From Streptomyces sp. Act143 (GTDB lineage: Bacteria > Actinomycetota > Actinomycetes > Streptomycetales > Streptomycetaceae), in assembly GCF_003143935.1 (NCBI RefSeq), contig NZ_QFRX01000001.1, positions 3,865,491-3,929,490 on the forward strand: a stretch of DNA of 64,000 nt, read 5' to 3'. The position numbers were made by a program, and so were the translations under genes. Under the pieces are notes generated by a model that saw only the letters and a list, made by a program, of their open reading frames with translations, had not been told where the DNA came from and did no database searches. Shown here piece by piece: positions 11,412 to 54,439 of the stretch. Position 1 is the stretch's first letter. The number at the start of each line of letters is the position of its first letter.

Positions 11412-11445
11412 GGTGGTGCGACGGACGGTTGTCCGTCGCACCACC
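11412..11445 (-). terminator. Terminator of the family-5 ABC transporter operon
   Basis: A perfect 14-bp stem (GGTGGTGCGACGGA and its complement) surrounds a 6-nt loop. It lies 67 nt beyond the stop of the ATPase gene and upstream of the glycosyltransferase start, insulating the two minus-strand transcription units. Confidence 0.85.
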
Positions 11446-11511: not shown

Positions 11512-13233
11512 TTACGTTCCGTCAGGCGCGGCCAGCTCCCGACGTGCGGCTCTGCGCCGTGCGGCCACCTCGGGGTCGAGTGCCGGTACGGCGGCCAGCA
11601 GTTGCTTGGTGTAGGGGTGCTGCGGGCTGTCGTACACCTCGTCGGCAGGCCCGGTCTCGACGATCCGGCCGCGCCGCATCACCGCGACCCGGTCGCTGAC
11701 CTGTCTTACGACGGCCAGGTCGTGCGCGACGAAGACGAGCGCGAGTCCGAGTTCGCGCTGCAACTCCCCCAGCAGGGCGACCACTTGGGCCTGTGTGGTG
11801 ACGTCCAGCGCGGAGACGGGCTCGTCGCAGACGATGACGCGCGGGTCGGCGGCGAGCGCACGCGCGATGCCCACCCGCTGGCGCTGTCCGCCGCTGAACT
11901 CGTGCGGGTAGCGGTCGTAGTGCGCCCCTTCGAGCCCGACGCGCGCCAGGAGCTCTGTCACGCGCCCCCTGATGCGTTGCTCGTCGCGCTCACCCCGCGC
12001 GCGGAGCGGGTCGGCTATGGACTCGCCCACGCTGCGGCGGGGGTTGAGGGAGGCGACGGGGTCCTGGAAGACCATCTGCACGGCGGGATGCACGCCCACG
12101 CGCGCGTGCCCGTCGTGACGGACCTCCCCCGCCGTCGGCTCCAGCAGCCCGACCAGCATCCGGCCGAGCGTCGTCTTGCCGCTGCCGCTCTCACCGACGA
12201 CACCGAGGGTCTCGCCCCGGCGGATGGTCAGCGAGACGTCGTCGACGGCCGTGAAGGCCGTCTTCCCGCGCCCGAACTCGCGCCGGAGGCCGGTGGCCTC
12301 CAGAACGACCTCACCGAGGTCCTCACCGACCCTCCCACCGAGCTCCTCGCCGAGCTCTTCGCCGACCTTCTCACCGAGCCCCTCGCCGACGTTCTCACCG
12401 GCCTTGTCGCCGGCCTTCCCGGCGGCCTTCTCGGTGGCCTCCCTGCCGGCCGTCCGGGTCGCGTCCACGCGCGGGACCGCGGCGAGCAGGTCGCATGTGT
12501 ACGCCTCCCGAGGCGCCCCGAGCACCGCGCCGACCGGCCCGTGCTCGACCGCCCGCCCGTGCCGCATCACGAGCACCTCGTCGACGCTCTCCGCCGCGAC
12601 GCCCACGTCGTGCGTGACGAGCAGCAGCCCCATGCCGGTCTCCTCGCGCAGCGTGTGCAGCAGGTCGAGGATCTGGGCCTGGACGGTGACGTCGAGCGCG
12701 GTGGTCGGCTCGTCGGCGATCAGCAGGTCCGGTTCGCAGGCGAGCGCCATGGCGATCAGCACGCGCTGGCGCATGCCGCCGCTGAACTCGTGCGGGCGGG
12801 ACCGCGACCGCCGTACCGCGTCCGGAATTCCAACCCGGTCGAGTACGTCGACCGCACGCGCGCGTGCGGCCCGTCGCGACACGCGCGTGTGCACGCGGTA
12901 CACCTCGGCGATCTGGTCCCCGACCGCGTAGTAAGGGTCGAGGGACGACAGCGGGTCCTGGAAGACCATCGCCGCCCTTCCACCGCGCAGTCGCCGCAGT
13001 TCCTCGTCCGTGGCCCGCTCCACGTCGATGCCGGCGACCTCGACCGAGCCGCCGACCCACGCGCCCGTGCCGCGGTGCAGCCCCAGCAGGGCGGCGGCGA
13101 CGGTGGACTTGCCGGAGCCGGACTCCCCGACCAGGGCGAGGGCGGCGCCCGGCTCCAGTCGGAGGGAGAGCTTGTCGACGGCACGCACCGAGCCGAACTC
13201 GACCGTCAGGTCCTTGACGTCCACGAGGCTCAT
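11512..13233 (-). CDS. Peptide/solute ABC transporter ATPase, DppD-DppF fusion
   Basis: This 573-residue protein contains two full ABC ATPase modules. Each has Walker A (GESGSGKST and GESGSGKTT), a signature motif (SGGMRQR and SGGQRQR) and Walker B ending in DEP. The modules are joined by a Gly/Glu/Lys-rich linker with repeated GE-x-x-GE units around residues 265-315. The C-terminal helix region [12 protein letters not shown] is typical of oligopeptide/dipeptide/nickel ATPases. It energises the two permeases encoded directly upstream; its start overlaps the permease stop by 4 nt. Confidence 0.92.
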
Positions 13234-14336
13234 GCGAGCACCACCCGTCGGTCGGCCACCGCGTACAGCACGTCCGCGACGGCGTTGGCGAGAACCACGA
13301 AGAAGCCGATGACCAGGACCATGCCGACCACGACCGGCAGGTCGACCACATTGACCGCATGGACCAGTTCCTGTCCGATGCCGGGCAGGCCGAACAGTGT
13401 CTCGGTGAGCACCGCGCCCCCGACCGCGCTGCCGAAGTTGTTGGCGTTGAGCGCAATGACCGGCGCCAACGCGCCCCGCAGGGCGTGCCGTCCGATCACG
13501 GACCGCTCCCCCACGCCGTACGCCCGGAAGGTGCGGATGTGGTCCTCGGCGAGCGTCTCCAGCATCGACGCGCGGGTCAGACGGGCGAACGCGGCGGCCT
13601 CGATGAGCGCGAGCGACAGCCAGGGCAGCAGCAGGTTCCACGCCCACTGCTCGGGGTCGTCGGTGAAGTCCACGTACTGCGGGAACGGCAGCAGTTGGAG
13701 CTGCCCGCAGACGACGATCATCAGGACCAGGCCGATGACGAAGACCGGCGTGGCCACGCCCGCGAGCGTGACGCCGGTCAGCAGCCGCTCGCTGAGCCGG
13801 CCGCGCCGCCAGGCGGACAGGACGCCGGTCCCGACGCCGAGGATCAGCCACAGCACCATCGCACCGAACACCAGCGACAGGCTGACCGGCAGCTTGGTGA
13901 GGATCAGCTGGGTGACCTGCTGGTCGCTCTGGTACGACAGCCCGAGGCAGGGTGCCGAGCAGTGCTGCACGGACGTGCCGGTCGAGTAGTCCTGGCCGGC
14001 GACGAGGCCCTCCAGGAAGTGCCAATAGCGCACGTAGAGCGGGTCGTCGAGCCTGAGCTGCTGGGCGACCTGGTGCACCTGTTCCGGCGAGCAGCGCGGA
14101 CCGCAGGTGATCTGGGCGACGTCGCCGGGGGTGACATAGAAGACGACGTAGACGATCACCGAGATGGCGAACAGGGTGACGACGGCGCCGAGCGTGCGCC
14201 TTACGAGGAAGCCCAGCATGCCCTGAAGCCCCGCCAGCCCCGCCAGCCCCGGAAGGCTTGCCGTGACTCGAGAGCCTGCCGTGCCTGGAGAGTCCTTCGT
14301 GGCTTGAGAACCCGTCGTGGCTTGAGAGCCCGTCAT
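13230..14336 (-). CDS. ABC transporter permease, DppB type
   Basis: This inner-membrane permease of the family-5 (peptide/nickel/opine) transporter class has 368 residues from the ATG at 14336, which overlaps the upstream stop by 4 nt. The first 40 residues are an unusual Ser/Thr/Gly-rich stretch containing the duplicated GSQAT unit, and the hydrophobic core begins with GFLVRRTLGAVVTLFAISV. An internal ATG at 14219 would remove this tail, but the ATGA coupling favours the longer form. A periplasm-side loop contains several Cys (ITCGPRC, HCSAPC), which is uncommon in the family. The EAA-type coupling region precedes the last helices. Confidence 0.88.
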   Translation of the reverse strand: MTGSQATTGSQATKDSPGTAGSRVTASLPGLAGLAGLQGMLGFLVRRTLGAVVTLFAISVIVYVVFYVTPGDVAQITCGPRCSPEQVHQVAQQLRLDDPLYVRYWHFLEGLVAGQDYSTGTSVQHCSAPCLGLSYQSDQQVTQLILTKLPVSLSLVFGAMVLWLILGVGTGVLSAWRRGRLSERLLTGVTLAGVATPVFVIGLVLMIVVCGQLQLLPFPQYVDFTDDPEQWAWNLLLPWLSLALIEAAAFARLTRASMLETLAEDHIRTFRAYGVGERSVIGRHALRGALAPVIALNANNFGSAVGGAVLTETLFGLPGIGQELVHAVNVVDLPVVVGMVLVIGFFVVLANAVADVLYAVADRRVVLA

Positions 14337-15319
14337 GCCTTGGCCTCCCTCTTGCGGCCCGTGCCGACGCGCAGCCGGGACGCCGCGCGCGGGTCCAGGG
14401 CGGTGCGCACGCCGTCGCCGAGGACGGTCAGGGCGAGGACGGTGACGAAGAGCGCGCCGGCCGGCAGCAGCAGGTACTGCGGGGCGGCCTGGTACCAGAC
14501 GTCGGCGGCGGTGAGCATCTGCCCCCACGACGGCGTGGGCGGCTTCACGCCGACGCCCAGGAAGGACAGGGCCGCCTCGACCGAGATGTTGCCCGGGACC
14601 AGCAGTGCCGCGTAGGTGATCACCGGCGCGGCGATGCCGGGCAGCAGTTCACGGCGGGCGATCCGCCAGGTGCCCCAGCCGCTGAGCCGCGCGGCGGAGA
14701 CGTAGTCGAGCCCCTTCAGCGTGAGCGTCTGGGCGCGCACGATCTTGGCGATGTTGCCCCACGCGATCAACCCGATGACCAGCGCGACGAGGACGGGTCG
14801 CGGGAAGCTCGCCGGGACGATCGCGAGCAGCGCCAACGACATGATCATGAGAGGCATGGCGACGATGACGTCCGTGAACCTGCTCAACAGTTGATCAACC
14901 CATCGACTGCCGAGCGCGGCCGATACACCCACGACGACACCGATCAACACCTGGACGACGGTGGCGGCCAGCGCGACGCCCAGCGAGACCCGGGCGCCGT
15001 ACACGAGCCGCGCGAACAGGTCGCGCCCCGTCTGCGGTTCGACGCCGAGCCAGTGGTCCCCGCTGATCCCGCCGAGGGACCCGATCGGCACGCCTCCGCG
15101 CGCGGAGTCCACCAGGGAGGAGTGATAGGTGTTCGGGTCCTGGCCCTCCAACGCGGTGAACAGCGGCGCCGCGAGGGCGACCAGGACGAGCAACGCGACA
15201 ACGCCGGCCGCGACCATGGCGGCCCGCTGCGCCCGCAGCCGCCGCCAGAACTGACGAGCCCCCGAGGCCCCCGGGGCGAGTGCCCCGGGGGTCTCGACGG
15301 CGACAAGTGCCTCGCTCAT
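14333..15319 (-). CDS. ABC transporter permease, DppC type
   Basis: This 328-residue permease starts at the ATG 15319, 4 nt after the stop of the binding-protein gene. It has the N-terminal cytoplasmic segment and first helix typical of DppC/OppC proteins (block FWRRLRAQRAAMVAAGVVA), a long first external loop, and the coupling region ARLSGWGTWRIARRELLPGI before the final helices. It forms the transmembrane channel with the neighbouring DppB-type subunit. Confidence 0.9.
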   Translation of the reverse strand: MSEALVAVETPGALAPGASGARQFWRRLRAQRAAMVAAGVVALLVLVALAAPLFTALEGQDPNTYHSSLVDSARGGVPIGSLGGISGDHWLGVEPQTGRDLFARLVYGARVSLGVALAATVVQVLIGVVVGVSAALGSRWVDQLLSRFTDVIVAMPLMIMSLALLAIVPASFPRPVLVALVIGLIAWGNIAKIVRAQTLTLKGLDYVSAARLSGWGTWRIARRELLPGIAAPVITYAALLVPGNISVEAALSFLGVGVKPPTPSWGQMLTAADVWYQAAPQYLLLPAGALFVTVLALTVLGDGVRTALDPRAASRLRVGTGRKREAKA

Positions 15320-15323
15320 CGGG

Positions 15324-17042
15324 TTACTTGACCGCGACCTGCGAGATGTCCAGCACACCGGTCCAGTCGCTGATCACGACGTTCTTGATGTCCTTGCCGA
15401 CCAGACGCTTGTAGACCGGGTGGAACAGCGGGACGGTCAGCGCCTGCTCACCGATCTTCTTGTCCAGTGCACCCCACCTCTTGGCGGCAGCGTCAAGATC
15501 GGTCAACTTGTTGATCGCGTCAATCTCGGCATTGACCGACTTGTCATTGAGCAGGCCCGAGTTGAAGTTCGCGCCGTCCTCGACGATCTGACGGCCGTCG
15601 AAGATCGGGGCGAGGAAGGGACCGCCGGAGGGCCAGTCGGCACCCCACGCGGAGAGGAAGAAGCCCGGTTCGGTCTTCACGTCGTGGATGGTGTCCGAGT
15701 AGGTGTTGTCCTCCAGGCCCTGCAGCTTGACCGTGATCCCGGCCTTCTTGAGCGCGTCCTGGATCGCGGTCGCGATCTCGGGGCTGGTCTTGAAGTTCTG
15801 GGCGTTGTCGTGGGTCAGCGTGACGGTGAGCCCGTTCGGGTAGCCGGCCTCCTTCAGCAGCTCCTTGGCCTTGGCCGCGTCGCCGGTGGCGCCCGCCGGG
15901 AAGTGGTCGTACGGCTCGTAGCCGAAGGACTTCTGGTTCGGCAGGAAGGTGGTGGCGGCCTCGGCCAGCGACGAGCCGCCGGCGGCGTTGACCACCGACG
16001 AACGATCAACGGCGTACGCGATCGCCTGCCGCACCTTGACGTTGTTGAACGGCTTGACGGTGGGGTTGAACGCTATGTAGTTCGTGTAGCCGAAGTGGCC
16101 CGTGCCGACGCGCGCGGCGAGCTCCTTGTCGCCGGTCACCTTGGCGAGCTCGGCGGGGCCGAGGTTGGTGTCCGTGGTGACCGCGGTCGCGTCCGCACCC
16201 TGGGACGCGGACAGCCGCTGGTTGATCACGGATGCGTCGAGCCCGGACCTGACGTCGATCTTGTCCGGGTACGCCTTGCGCTCGGCGTCCGTCGAGGCGG
16301 ACCAGTACGTGTTGCGCGCCAGGAGGACGGTCTCGCCGTCGTTCTCGTTCTTGACGACCTTGTAGGGGCCGGACGAGACCGGGTGCTCCTCGTACTTCGT
16401 CCCGGTGTCCTTGGCCTTCGGGACGGGCGCGAACTGCGTCTGCGTGGCCAGGAAGGGGAACTCGCCCTCGGGCTTGTTCAGGTGGAAGACGATGGTCCGG
16501 TCGTCCGGCGTCTCGATGGCGCCCAGCCCGCCCTTGTCCTTGTACGGCCCCTGGTAGTCGGCCGCGCCGACCAGCCAGTCCCGCAGGTAGGGCGCACCAC
16601 CGGACAGCTCGGGCGCGAAGGAGCGCTCGATGCCGTACTTGATGTCGGCCGAGGTGATCGCGGTGCCGTCCTCGTACTTGAGCCCCTTCTTCAGGGTGTA
16701 CGTCCACACGGTCGCGTCCTTGTTGGGACGCCCGGTGTCGGTGGCGAGGTCGGGGACGACCTTCGCGCCGGCGGCGCCGTCCTCGCGGTTGCGGGTGGTG
16801 AGCGTACGGAAGACGAGCGAGGGCACGTTGCCGCCGCCGGAGGTGTAGAGGCGGGCCGGGTCGAAGTCGGTCTGCGGCTCGGAGTTCAGGACCGTGAGGG
16901 TGCCGCCCTTGTGGGGCGTGGAGTCGCCACCGGAGCTCTCGGCATCGTTGTCCTCAGGGCCGCAGGCGGCGGCGCCCGCGGCCAGGACCAGGCTTACGGA
17001 TGCCGCGGCCACGCGGCGCGCGATGACGGACGGTTGACGCAT
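15324..17042 (-). CDS. Family-5 extracellular solute-binding lipoprotein
   Basis: This 572-residue substrate-binding lipoprotein has a signal peptide ending in the lipobox LAAGAAAC, then a typical SBP_bac_5 fold (GGTLTVLNSEPQTDFDP near the N-terminus, QAIAYAVDR in the middle, FFLSAWGADWPSGGPF near the C-terminus). Members bind peptides, nickel, opines or glutathione. The substrate cannot be read directly. A leader peptide with two Cys codons near its end lies upstream, which points weakly to a sulfur-containing substrate. It is the first structural gene of a four-gene operon. Confidence 0.9.
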   Translation of the reverse strand: MRQPSVIARRVAAASVSLVLAAGAAACGPEDNDAESSGGDSTPHKGGTLTVLNSEPQTDFDPARLYTSGGGNVPSLVFRTLTTRNREDGAAGAKVVPDLATDTGRPNKDATVWTYTLKKGLKYEDGTAITSADIKYGIERSFAPELSGGAPYLRDWLVGAADYQGPYKDKGGLGAIETPDDRTIVFHLNKPEGEFPFLATQTQFAPVPKAKDTGTKYEEHPVSSGPYKVVKNENDGETVLLARNTYWSASTDAERKAYPDKIDVRSGLDASVINQRLSASQGADATAVTTDTNLGPAELAKVTGDKELAARVGTGHFGYTNYIAFNPTVKPFNNVKVRQAIAYAVDRSSVVNAAGGSSLAEAATTFLPNQKSFGYEPYDHFPAGATGDAAKAKELLKEAGYPNGLTVTLTHDNAQNFKTSPEIATAIQDALKKAGITVKLQGLEDNTYSDTIHDVKTEPGFFLSAWGADWPSGGPFLAPIFDGRQIVEDGANFNSGLLNDKSVNAEIDAINKLTDLDAAAKRWGALDKKIGEQALTVPLFHPVYKRLVGKDIKNVVISDWTGVLDISQVAVK

Positions 17043-17156
17043 CGGAGACGACCTCTCGAGGAATGATTCTCTGCATCTCGAATGACGAGACAGATTGACG
17101 AAGGGTGAGACAGGAGTGAACAGACGTCTGCCCGGGCGTCAGGTCGTCGAAGAACC

Positions 17157-17172
17157 GTGGGCAAGAGCCCAC
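17157..17172 (-). other. Small hairpin in the leader of the ABC operon
   Basis: GTGGGC and GCCCAC form a 6-bp stem around a 4-nt loop, between the leader peptide stop and the binding-protein start. It could be part of an attenuation or ribosome-access switch, but no U-tract follows it. Confidence 0.4.
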
Positions 17173-17214
17173 AGACAAGGAAGAAGATCGCGACGCGAAC
17201 GCCAGAGGCGGACG

Positions 17215-17307
17215 TCAGCGACAGTGAATGTCGGCCACGCAGAGCGCGGTCACGCCGATGAGCGCCAGCTCGATGGCGGCGCGAACGGAGGCGTGACGGG
17301 ACGACAT
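17215..17307 (-). CDS. Putative 30-residue leader peptide with C-terminal Cys codons
   Basis: An ATG at 17307 opens a 31-codon frame ending in LCVADIHCR and TGA, with Cys at positions 24 and 29. It is too short for standard gene finding. The likely transcription start lies within a few bases of the ATG, so translation is probably leaderless. It stands 172 nt upstream of the solute-binding protein. Such Cys-ended small peptides are known upstream of sulfur-related operons in actinobacteria, where ribosome stalling at Cys codons controls downstream expression. That role is inferred here. Confidence 0.6.
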   Translation of the reverse strand: MSSRHASVRAAIELALIGVTALCVADIHCR

Positions 17308-17344
17308 GCGCAGAAAATTAGTACGACTTTTCTGCGCATGTCAA
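17305..17344 (-). promoter_or_regulatory. Promoter inside a perfect 13-bp inverted repeat (probable operator)
   Basis: On the minus strand, TTGACA (17339-17344) is followed after 18 nt by TAATTT (17315-17320), or after 15 nt by TACTAA. The arms CATGCGCAGAAAA (17305-17317) and its exact complement (17328-17340) are 10 nt apart. They cover the -35 edge, the -10 region and the leader-peptide start codon. A dimeric repressor bound here would block the promoter directly. Confidence 0.7.
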
Positions 17345-17364: not shown

Positions 17365-19077
17365 TCAACTCCCGGGATACGGCCAGGGGTTGGGCTTGCA
17401 CGTGATGCCGTTGTGGGTCAGGAACTTGGTCTGCTGCTGCATGACCGGGGCGAGTTCGCCGTTCTTGTCGCAGGTCACATGGCTGTAGCCGAGCCGATGA
17501 CCGACCTCGTGGTTGATCAGCATCTGCCGGTAGGCGTGGATCTGGTCGCCGTAGGTCTTGGAGCCCTGGGCCCACCGGAACGCGTTGATCATCACGCGCT
17601 CGGTGGCGGCCGAGTCGCAGGACACGTTGTCCACGGTCGTGTCCAGACCGGACTTGGCGCACCACTTGGCCGTGGTGCCCGGGCTGGCGAGCGTGATCAC
17701 GAAGTCGGGTTTGCCGGAGTAGACGCGCTCGAAGGTGCGGGCACCGTTGTGGGACCAGCTCCGGTCGTCGTTGAGCGTCTTGTGCACCGCCTCGGCGAAC
17801 AGCTCCCCGTCGAGCCCGAGCCCCTGCTCGACGTCCACCCGGTAGGTGAACTTCTGCCCGCTGCCGGGCGCCTTGGCGACGCCCTTGACCGCATCGAACT
17901 TCCCCGACCCGGTGAGCCCGGCCGCGAGGGCGTACTTCTGGTCCATCTTCTGCTCGTACGTCAGCGTCGCCACGCCGGGCGACGACGACGGCGTGGGCCG
18001 CCCGTCCCCGCGCGAGGCGGAGTCACGGGCGTCCCGCGCGCGGTCGGTGGCGGCCTGCGACTGCACGGCGGTGTCGTCCCGCCCGTCGGCGACCTGACCG
18101 GCGACGACGACGGCCAGCACGGTGGTGACGGCGGCGGCCGCGATCCCGGTGAACGTCCGCCCCTTGCCGCCCTTGCCGCGCACGGGCTCGCCGGTGGGCG
18201 GGGCGTCCTCGTCATCGGCGTCGGTACGCGGTTCCGGGGTGGTCTGCCAGTCGGTGACGGAGGCGTACGGGTCCGCGGCCACGGAAGCGTGAGCAGTACG
18301 GTGCGCGAACCCGGGGCCCTGATCCGGCCGGCGCGAGAACAGATCGACGTCCTCGCCCTCGAAGGCGTCGAGATAGTCCTGCCGGGGACCGGGCTGCCGG
18401 CGGCCACCAGGACCACCGGGAGGCGCCTGGCGCTGCCGGGGCAGGGTGACACCGGGCCCGGCGGTGGCGGAGGTGCCGTGCGCCCCCAACTCGCCCCAGC
18501 CACCCCCGTTCTCACGCTGCTCGGGATGACCGCCCCGAACCCCGGGAGTGCCGTGCGCGGGGGTGCCATCGGGGAACGGGAACCGGGGGACACCGCGAGC
18601 GGGCGTCCCGTCCGGAAGCCGGGGAACTCCATGAGCAGGCGTCCCATCGGCAAACCGCGGCACACCGCGAGCAGGCGTCCCATCAGGCAGCCGCGGAACC
18701 CCATGCGCAGGCGTCCCATCAGGAAGCCGAGGAACCCCATGCGCAGGCGTCCCATCGGCAAACCGCGGCACACCCCGCGCCGGCGTCCCGTCCGGAAGCC
18801 GAGGCACTCCATGAGCAGGCGTGCCGTCAGGGATTCGCGCCCCCTGCGCAAGCCGATACACCGGGTCCCCGTACACCGAGGGCCCGCCCGCCGAGGGCAT
18901 CCCCTGCCCCGGCGCAGCACCCGATCGAGGTACGGCACCCGCCCCAGGCACGGCACCGGACCCAGGGGCGACACCGGGCCGAGGTGCGGCACCCGCGTCC
19001 CCCCGACCGCCTCGCCTTGCGGCTGTCTCCGCGGAGTCACCCTTGGGGGCGGACCCGCGGCGGCTGTGGCGTCCCAC
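17365..19077 (-). CDS. DUF3152 protein: membrane-anchored, metalloprotease-like, with N-terminal 12-residue repeats
   Basis: This 570-residue protein has a Gly/Ala/Pro-rich cytoplasmic N-terminus. It contains eight tandem copies of a 12-residue unit (consensus DGTPAHGVPRLP, about residues 84-181), then one transmembrane helix (ITGIAAAAV-like segment near residue 300). The external C-terminal DUF3152 domain carries HEVGHRLGYSH at 523-533, a full zinc metalloprotease HExxHxxGxxH motif, plus four Cys likely in disulfides. The predicted topology puts the protease-like domain outside the cell. Substrate unknown. Repeat number probably varies between strains. Confidence 0.85.
   Translation of the reverse strand: MGRHSRRGSAPKGDSAETAARRGGRGDAGAAPRPGVAPGSGAVPGAGAVPRSGAAPGQGMPSAGGPSVYGDPVYRLAQGARIPDGTPAHGVPRLPDGTPARGVPRFADGTPAHGVPRLPDGTPAHGVPRLPDGTPARGVPRFADGTPAHGVPRLPDGTPARGVPRFPFPDGTPAHGTPGVRGGHPEQRENGGGWGELGAHGTSATAGPGVTLPRQRQAPPGGPGGRRQPGPRQDYLDAFEGEDVDLFSRRPDQGPGFAHRTAHASVAADPYASVTDWQTTPEPRTDADDEDAPPTGEPVRGKGGKGRTFTGIAAAAVTTVLAVVVAGQVADGRDDTAVQSQAATDRARDARDSASRGDGRPTPSSSPGVATLTYEQKMDQKYALAAGLTGSGKFDAVKGVAKAPGSGQKFTYRVDVEQGLGLDGELFAEAVHKTLNDDRSWSHNGARTFERVYSGKPDFVITLASPGTTAKWCAKSGLDTTVDNVSCDSAATERVMINAFRWAQGSKTYGDQIHAYRQMLINHEVGHRLGYSHVTCDKNGELAPVMQQQTKFLTHNGITCKPNPWPYPGS
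18535..18828. repeat. 36-bp tandem coding repeats in the DUF3152 gene
   Basis: Eight 36-bp units encode the DGTPA[HR]GVPR[LF][PA] repeat. One unit has a two-residue insertion (FP). The near identity of the copies suggests recent expansion by slippage or unequal recombination. Confidence 0.8.
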
Positions 19078-22014: not shown

Positions 22015-22028
22015 GCAGACGCATGAGG

Positions 22029-22062
22029 AAGGGCCCGGCGACTTCAAAGTCGCCGGGCCCTT
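22029..22062 (+). terminator. Terminator after the DUF3107 gene
   Basis: A 15-bp perfect stem (AAGGGCCCGGCGACT and its complement) has a 4-nt loop. It starts 15 nt after the stop. Confidence 0.88.
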
Positions 22063-22065
22063 CTC

Positions 22066-26328: not shown

Positions 26329-26369
26329 GCCGACGGCCCGGTCCACCCCGTGTGGGCCGGGCCGTCGGC
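26329..26369 (+). terminator. Terminator after the helicase gene
   Basis: GCCGACGGCCCG and its exact complement at 26358-26369 form a 12-bp stem with a 17-nt loop, 13 nt beyond the stop. Confidence 0.8.
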
Positions 26370-53208: not shown

Positions 53209-53246
53209 CGATGGGGCCAGGGAGACCGATCTCCCTGGCCCCATCG
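53209..53246. terminator. Bidirectional terminator between secreted-protein gene and dapC
   Basis: A perfect 17-bp stem (left 53209-53225, right 53230-53246) has a 4-nt loop. Confidence 0.93.
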
Positions 53247-54385: not shown

Positions 54386-54439
54386 CGCCTCGGTCCCGTA
54401 CGGCGATCGGAGCTGATCCGGCCGTACGGGACCGAGGCG
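54386..54439 (-). terminator. Terminator after the ferredoxin gene
   Basis: A perfect 19-bp stem (54386-54404 and 54421-54439) encloses a 16-nt loop that can form an inner hairpin. It separates the ferredoxin gene from dapC. Confidence 0.93.

Follow-up and report, generated by a model that had tools for sequence, protein, structure and literature searches.

Work by Canestrari from 2020 reportedly demonstrated by experiment that a leaderless ORF containing Cys codons can exert ribosome-dependent control over the start of a downstream gene. In mycobacteria, Cys-rich leaderless uORFs that respond to cysteine have been described, with that of cysA2 as an example (Shell 2015, PMC4633059), and the polycysteine leaderless attenuators of these organisms are presented, with Canestrari 2020 as the source, in the citing passages of PMC9031893 and PMC9094748. 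Leaderless promoters have also been mapped in S. lividans, where they combine a TAnnnT -10 element and TTGACn with a distance of 4-9 nt from the -10 element to the start (PMC8079986).

The locus that we compare with these systems lies in a 64,000-nt window, by which we mean the whole stretch of DNA analysed, from the 9.6-Mb genome of Streptomyces sp. Act143 (contig NZ_QFRX01000001.1, assembly GCF_003143935.1). An earlier interpretation made from the letters alone (the sequence-only reading) had listed a -35/-10 pair, an inverted repeat with a start codon in its downstream arm, a 30-residue frame, a hairpin and an operon in the order SBP-DppC-DppB-DppDF, and direct reading located every one of these parts, with promoter, dyad, leader frame, hairpin and operon genes all on the minus strand (Table 1). 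The spacer between the -35 and -10 elements is 18 nt, and a further 7 nt lead from the -10 element to the leader ATG at 17307-17305, inside the downstream dyad arm. This spacing and the position of the -10 element 7 nt ahead of the ATG agree with the geometry of the S. lividans leaderless promoters (PMC8079986), and we infer from the sequence that the transcript is leaderless and starts at the leader ATG. TAATTT matches the consensus weakly, and for this reason a scan for consensus promoters passed over the site. The leader ATG stands 57 bp after the DUF3152 stop codon, the leader ends 172 nt before the SBP gene and the gene order is the same in the relatives examined. A counterpart of the hairpin 3' of the operon is conserved after DUF3152 in operon-less genomes.

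Table 1. Features of the leader locus and its operon, listed in the direction of transcription (coordinates are those of the window)
Feature	Position	Strand	Basis or detail
DUF3152 gene, upstream and co-directional	17365-19077	-	Pfam PF11350
-35 element TTGACA	17339-17344	-	Direct reading; TTGACA in 80/80 aligned relatives
Inverted repeat over the promoter	17303-17342	.	Perfect 13-bp arms CATGCGCAGAAAA, 17305-17317 and 17328-17340, 10 bp between
-10 element TAATTT	17315-17320	-	Direct reading and aligned relatives; CATATT in most relatives
Leader peptide, 30 aa, MSSRHASVRAAIELALIGVTALCVADIHCR, ends LCVADIHCR	17215-17307	-	NCBIfam NF042937; conserved in relatives
Anti-start element CGCGTCGCGA; its predicted partner is TCCGATGCG, at the SBP start codon	17188-17197	-	Consensus fold of 20 relatives; mostly invariant columns
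Hairpin CTGTGGGC-TCTT-GCCCACGG in the leader-SBP gap	17155-17174	-	Direct reading, alignment, consensus fold
Anti-Shine-Dalgarno GACGACC; its predicted partner is GGTCGTC, at 17047-17053	17142-17148	-	Consensus fold
SBP Shine-Dalgarno GAGAGG, predicted to be sequestered	17052-17057	-	Invariant in 20 aligned relatives; paired in consensus fold
SBP, family-5 solute-binding lipoprotein (OppA/DppA type)	15324-17042	-	Pfam SBP_bac_5, E 3.9e-76
DppC/OppC-type permease	14333-15319	-	Pfam BPD_transp_1 and OppC_N; NCBIfam Opp4C below cut-off
DppB/OppB-type permease	13230-14336	-	NCBIfam Opp2B, below cut-off
DppDF, two ABC-type ATPase halves in a single frame	11512-13233	-	Translation read directly
Perfect 15-bp hairpin GGTGGTGCGACGGAC 3' of the operon, probable terminator	11412-11445	-	Inverted-repeat scan

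The small frame scores 59 bits against NCBIfam NF042937 (Ms4533A family Cys-rich leader peptide; cut-off 31) over model positions 1-30 of 30, and an importer gene follows just downstream on the same strand, the two features by which members of this family are recognised. Judged by this match, the leader is a member of an already catalogued family and is not new in kind. The sequence-only reading had held that its leader claim would fall if the terminal Cys codons were not conserved; the last of these codons proves to be invariant in all of the 144 Streptomyces loci that we counted (some genomes are present twice), every time as TGT; TGT also encodes the terminal Cys in 35 of 35 leaders from a second actinobacterial family. 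Cys codons elsewhere divide between TGC and TGT as 21:0 in eight genes of the window, 81:0 in the SBP genes of 80 loci and 494:78 in the ends of DUF3152. The first Cys (ALC) is found in 117 of the 144 leaders, and 22 have a single Cys only. In the window leader there are two, separated from one another, and relatives end in CR or CC. A tract of adjacent Cys codons, as in the Canestrari-type attenuators, is absent from the window leader, and our claim is therefore that it works like a polycysteine attenuator, not that it belongs to that class. At two loci (L156 and L157) the frame continues beyond the Cys (CRQGQRHLTSA), with no stop there.

Leader and operon travel together across the genus. 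Of 199 Streptomyces genomes, 95 carry the leader, each in a single copy, and an SBP orthologue (E <= 1e-200) was called in 93 of the 199, all 93 of which also have the leader; of the two leader-positive genomes without such a call, one is 78% complete and the other gave a weak match. About half of the 199 sampled Streptomyces lack the operon. In 20 leader-less genomes, DUF3152 is not followed by the SBP gene, and most of them join it directly to the region that normally lies 3' of the operon. Two of the 20 retain remnants, namely promoter scraps at L133 and L139 and, at L139, DppF as well, and these indicate loss of the operon by deletion. Since none of the 20 has the operon at that place and two keep traces of it, operon and leader appear to have been lost together. 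A search for plasmid copies of the leader found none. The window SBP is 97% identical to those of Streptomyces sp. GKU 895 and S. justiciae. The leader is thus real and conserved, and it is probably a functional cysteine leader.

How such a leader might govern the importer is suggested by the RNA between it and the SBP gene. In a consensus fold of 20 relatives, both the Shine-Dalgarno sequence and the AUG of the SBP gene are predicted to be buried, and pairing of the Shine-Dalgarno sequence exceeds that of a shuffled-upstream control at 89 of 110 loci, a modest excess on average (mean 0.69 versus 0.62). The key pairs that cover the start are mostly invariant, and covariation therefore cannot confirm them. 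Between the two start-covering pairings sits the hairpin at 17155-17174, which does covary, with CG replaced by GC in four of 20 relatives and AU by GC in one. The sole match to a known RNA family was a chance one (MIR8001), and a simple intrinsic terminator between leader and SBP was rejected, the search having returned just a weak 5-bp candidate.

We consider it likely that the apparently leaderless Ms4533A-family leader senses cysteine, and that Cys-dependent pausing of the ribosome exposes the SBP start. The mRNA would begin, without a 5' leader, at the ATG of the 30-codon peptide. When charged Cys-tRNA is plentiful, the ribosome would complete the leader and depart, leaving CGCGTCGCGA and GACGACC to cover the SBP start codon and Shine-Dalgarno region so that the importer stays off. 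When cysteine is scarce, the ribosome would instead pause at the Cys codons, chiefly the invariant TGT near the end, disturb the sequestering fold and allow the importer to be made. It counts against this scheme that a ribosome stalled on the last Cys codon would be expected to fall just short of the anti-start element. Pausing at the Cys codons and the direction of control are proposed by analogy with the mycobacterial systems; on this basis the operon is probably switched on when cysteine runs short.

The same leader family is also found ahead of an unrelated importer. Among genomes of the second actinobacterial family the leader is present in 84 of 151, and a gene for a sulfate-binding-protein-like product lies downstream in 35 of the 35 loci examined; both of the two such proteins that were checked against NCBIfam match TIGR00971 above its cut-off. 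The two groups share the core ELALI-V----VADI-C ahead of two unrelated operons, and at about half of the ten shared non-Cys positions the commonest codon differs between them. A shared core written in differing synonymous codons points to selection on the peptide, beyond a counting of Cys codons, and the nascent chain may thus take part in regulation. Pressed further, the same conservation, together with the leaders that have one Cys, could mean that the frame is an arrest peptide whose hydrophobic core stalls the ribosome, the terminal Cys being merely part of the arrest motif and no plain cysteine-codon sensor at all. We think this rather unlikely: sulfate import by the mycobacterial-type operon and the invariance of the terminal Cys both fit cysteine sensing, and we retain the cysteine-sensing leader as our preferred interpretation. 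In seven genomes of the second family (G590, G617, G634, G650, G665, G701 and G712), two Ms4533A leaders lie about 1.5-1.8 kb apart.

The palindrome over the promoter is separate from the leader switch and specific to a clade. Its extended 20+20 bp form (17303-17342) is 90% complementary, the stretch folds as RNA with a z of about -6.5 relative to shuffles and the 13-mer arm is found at no other site in the genome. Strong hairpins are common in the window, which holds 19 inverted repeats of the palindrome's class; that at 26329-26369 lies 14 bp beyond a stop codon. Further perfect inverted repeats of 17-19 bp, at 54386-54439, 22028-22063 and 53209-53246, are probably terminators. The sequence-only reading took the palindrome to be an operator, bound by a repressor of its own that would close the promoter, and a symmetric element that is centred in the -35/-10 spacer and overlaps the start does occupy a classic repressor position. 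The same reading had named conservation of the dyad in related species as a check, however, and relatives retain only parts of it (alignment of 80): among the 144 loci, perfect arms are limited to the window and L034-L036, four near-identical promoters, and an exact search found them in one of 199 genomes. Nor does the half-site recur in the genome at two mismatches, bar one poor match; the half-site starts lie 23 bp apart, which is an unusual spacing, and no regulator adjoins the operon, the nearest identified being a TetR gene about 3.6 kb upstream. The repeat CATGTCA-CAT-TGACATG and its variants are the best one in 35 loci, and as an alternative dyad CATGTCA-N3-TGACATG occurs exactly in five of the 199 genomes, each time at this promoter alone. 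A count for the dyad on the SBP tree gave three double compensations and 58 one-sided breaks. With its sequence unconserved and its pairing so often broken, the dyad is not a conserved operator, a candidate ruled out by the exact, mismatch and alternative-dyad searches, and we regard a repressor dedicated to it as quite improbable. The two layers of control that were originally proposed have therefore fared differently: the Cys leader is upheld by family match, invariant terminal Cys, strict co-occurrence with the operon and a conserved fold predicted to hide the SBP start, whereas the repressor on the dyad is not.

Most likely, the palindrome either forms a hairpin in RNA read through from DUF3152 or reflects self-complementarity that the promoter inherited, and these two origins strike us as about equally likely. 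If the former is correct, the 3'-end or read-through hairpin of the DUF3152 transcript lies over the operon promoter and, in read-through RNA, would mask the AUG of the leader, so that transcription arriving from upstream would not disturb the cysteine switch. The palindrome begins about 24 nt after the DUF3152 stop, and a repeat in this position, centred about 21 nt from the -35 element, is the best one in 59 of the 144 loci and significant in 47, with several stem sequences (CCCAG/CTGGG, CGGAA/TTCCG and TGCAG/CTGCA among them). In other clades the repeats of this gap sit elsewhere, in some cases starting from the stop codon itself, and basal clades carry GAGAC-N4-GTCTC repeats, some beginning at the DUF3152 stop. 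Moreover, the sense RNA folds better than the antisense in 62 loci and worse in eight, and changes to G-U on the tree number 30 versus seven to A-C, although base composition and shared ancestry may explain this excess. Against a read-through hairpin stand the absence of a U-tract, the preponderance of breaks over compensations and the 78 of 144 loci in which a significant repeat is missing; strong covariation proof of the dyad hairpin, sought on the SBP tree, was not obtained. We take this origin seriously without quite expecting it to prove right. Equally conceivable, and held with the same reserve, is that the palindrome serves no function in itself, the -35 element, -10 flank and start context having been self-complementary by chance in an ancestor and perfected in this clade. 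The -35 box and the Met-Ser codons leave TTGACATG and CATGTC no freedom to vary, pairing between the variable arm positions rarely exceeds the column-shuffled expectation (clearly only at p3, 40 versus 31.1, with a weak excess at the innermost pair, 8 versus 4.8), and pairing breaks are common on the tree. Against this reading, several clades hold a long stem in this position whose sequence differs from clade to clade.

The TGAGAC-N4-GTCTCA repeat found upstream in other clades was considered as a sulfur-regulator site and rejected: it occurs at 22 places in the 199 genomes, four of them at this promoter and the rest scattered, several at gene ends, with three groups of mutually homologous loci among the scattered places. 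Hairpins of this sequence at L154, L192, L193, L195 and L210, some starting on the TGA stop itself, perhaps represent a recurrent Streptomyces gene-end hairpin. At L196, L198, L200 and L207 (also L201, L205 and L206), homologous loci from several genomes have an intergenic-looking copy of the palindrome, which may be a regulator site with no connection to this operon.

A speculative extension, to which we would give little weight for now, is that Ms4533A leaders are a reusable cassette in which the nascent peptide (ELALI-V----VADI-C with its TGT Cys) joins in a cysteine-dependent arrest. The cassette would be coupled to a sulfate importer in one family and to a peptide importer in Streptomyces, and the window clade would have added a promoter-overlapping hairpin that silences the leader in read-through RNA.

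As for the cargo, the nearest solved relative of the SBP is the clavulanic acid biosynthesis oligopeptide-binding protein 2 (2wok, 287 bits). The operon proteins that were run reached none of the NCBIfam transporter equivalog cut-offs, and the glutathione importer equivalogs fall short (GsiB 93.5 versus 594, GsiD 189.6 versus 484 and GsiC 188.5 versus 463 bits). A sulfur-containing peptide or glutathione is nevertheless a plausible substrate, an argument drawn from the regulatory logic. Tying a widespread, uncharacterised Streptomyces peptide-type importer to cysteine supply yields a testable guess at its cargo. The conservation of the peptide over both kinds of operon, together with the invariant codon, suggests in addition that the nascent chain, and not the number of Cys codons alone, may play a part in actinobacterial cysteine attenuation, and the fate of the dyad is a warning that promoter palindromes should be compared across relatives before they are called operators.

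Among described systems, the Ms4533A leaders before sulfate importer genes resemble the present leader in the 30-aa family, the core LALI-V----VADI-C, the terminal TGT, the apparently leaderless promoter and the importer downstream. Unlike those loci, with their sulfate-binding protein and permease, this one has an oligopeptide-type ABC importer and an extra promoter palindrome, and its leaders carry a single Cys or a pair, frequently not in a run. With the Canestrari-type attenuators, as far as the citing papers outline them, it shares a small ORF with C-terminal Cys codons; a leaderless start and ribosome-dependent control of a downstream start are predicted here. It counts against the cysteine scheme that the single-Cys leaders (22 of 144) are weaker than the mycobacterial polycysteine tracts as outlined there. 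The leuL, trpL, ilvL and metL leaders of Streptomyces (PMC8079986) are leaderless leader ORFs before amino-acid operons, often without a clear intrinsic terminator, but they sense other amino acids, and PMC8079986 gives no cysteine leader to set beside the one described here.
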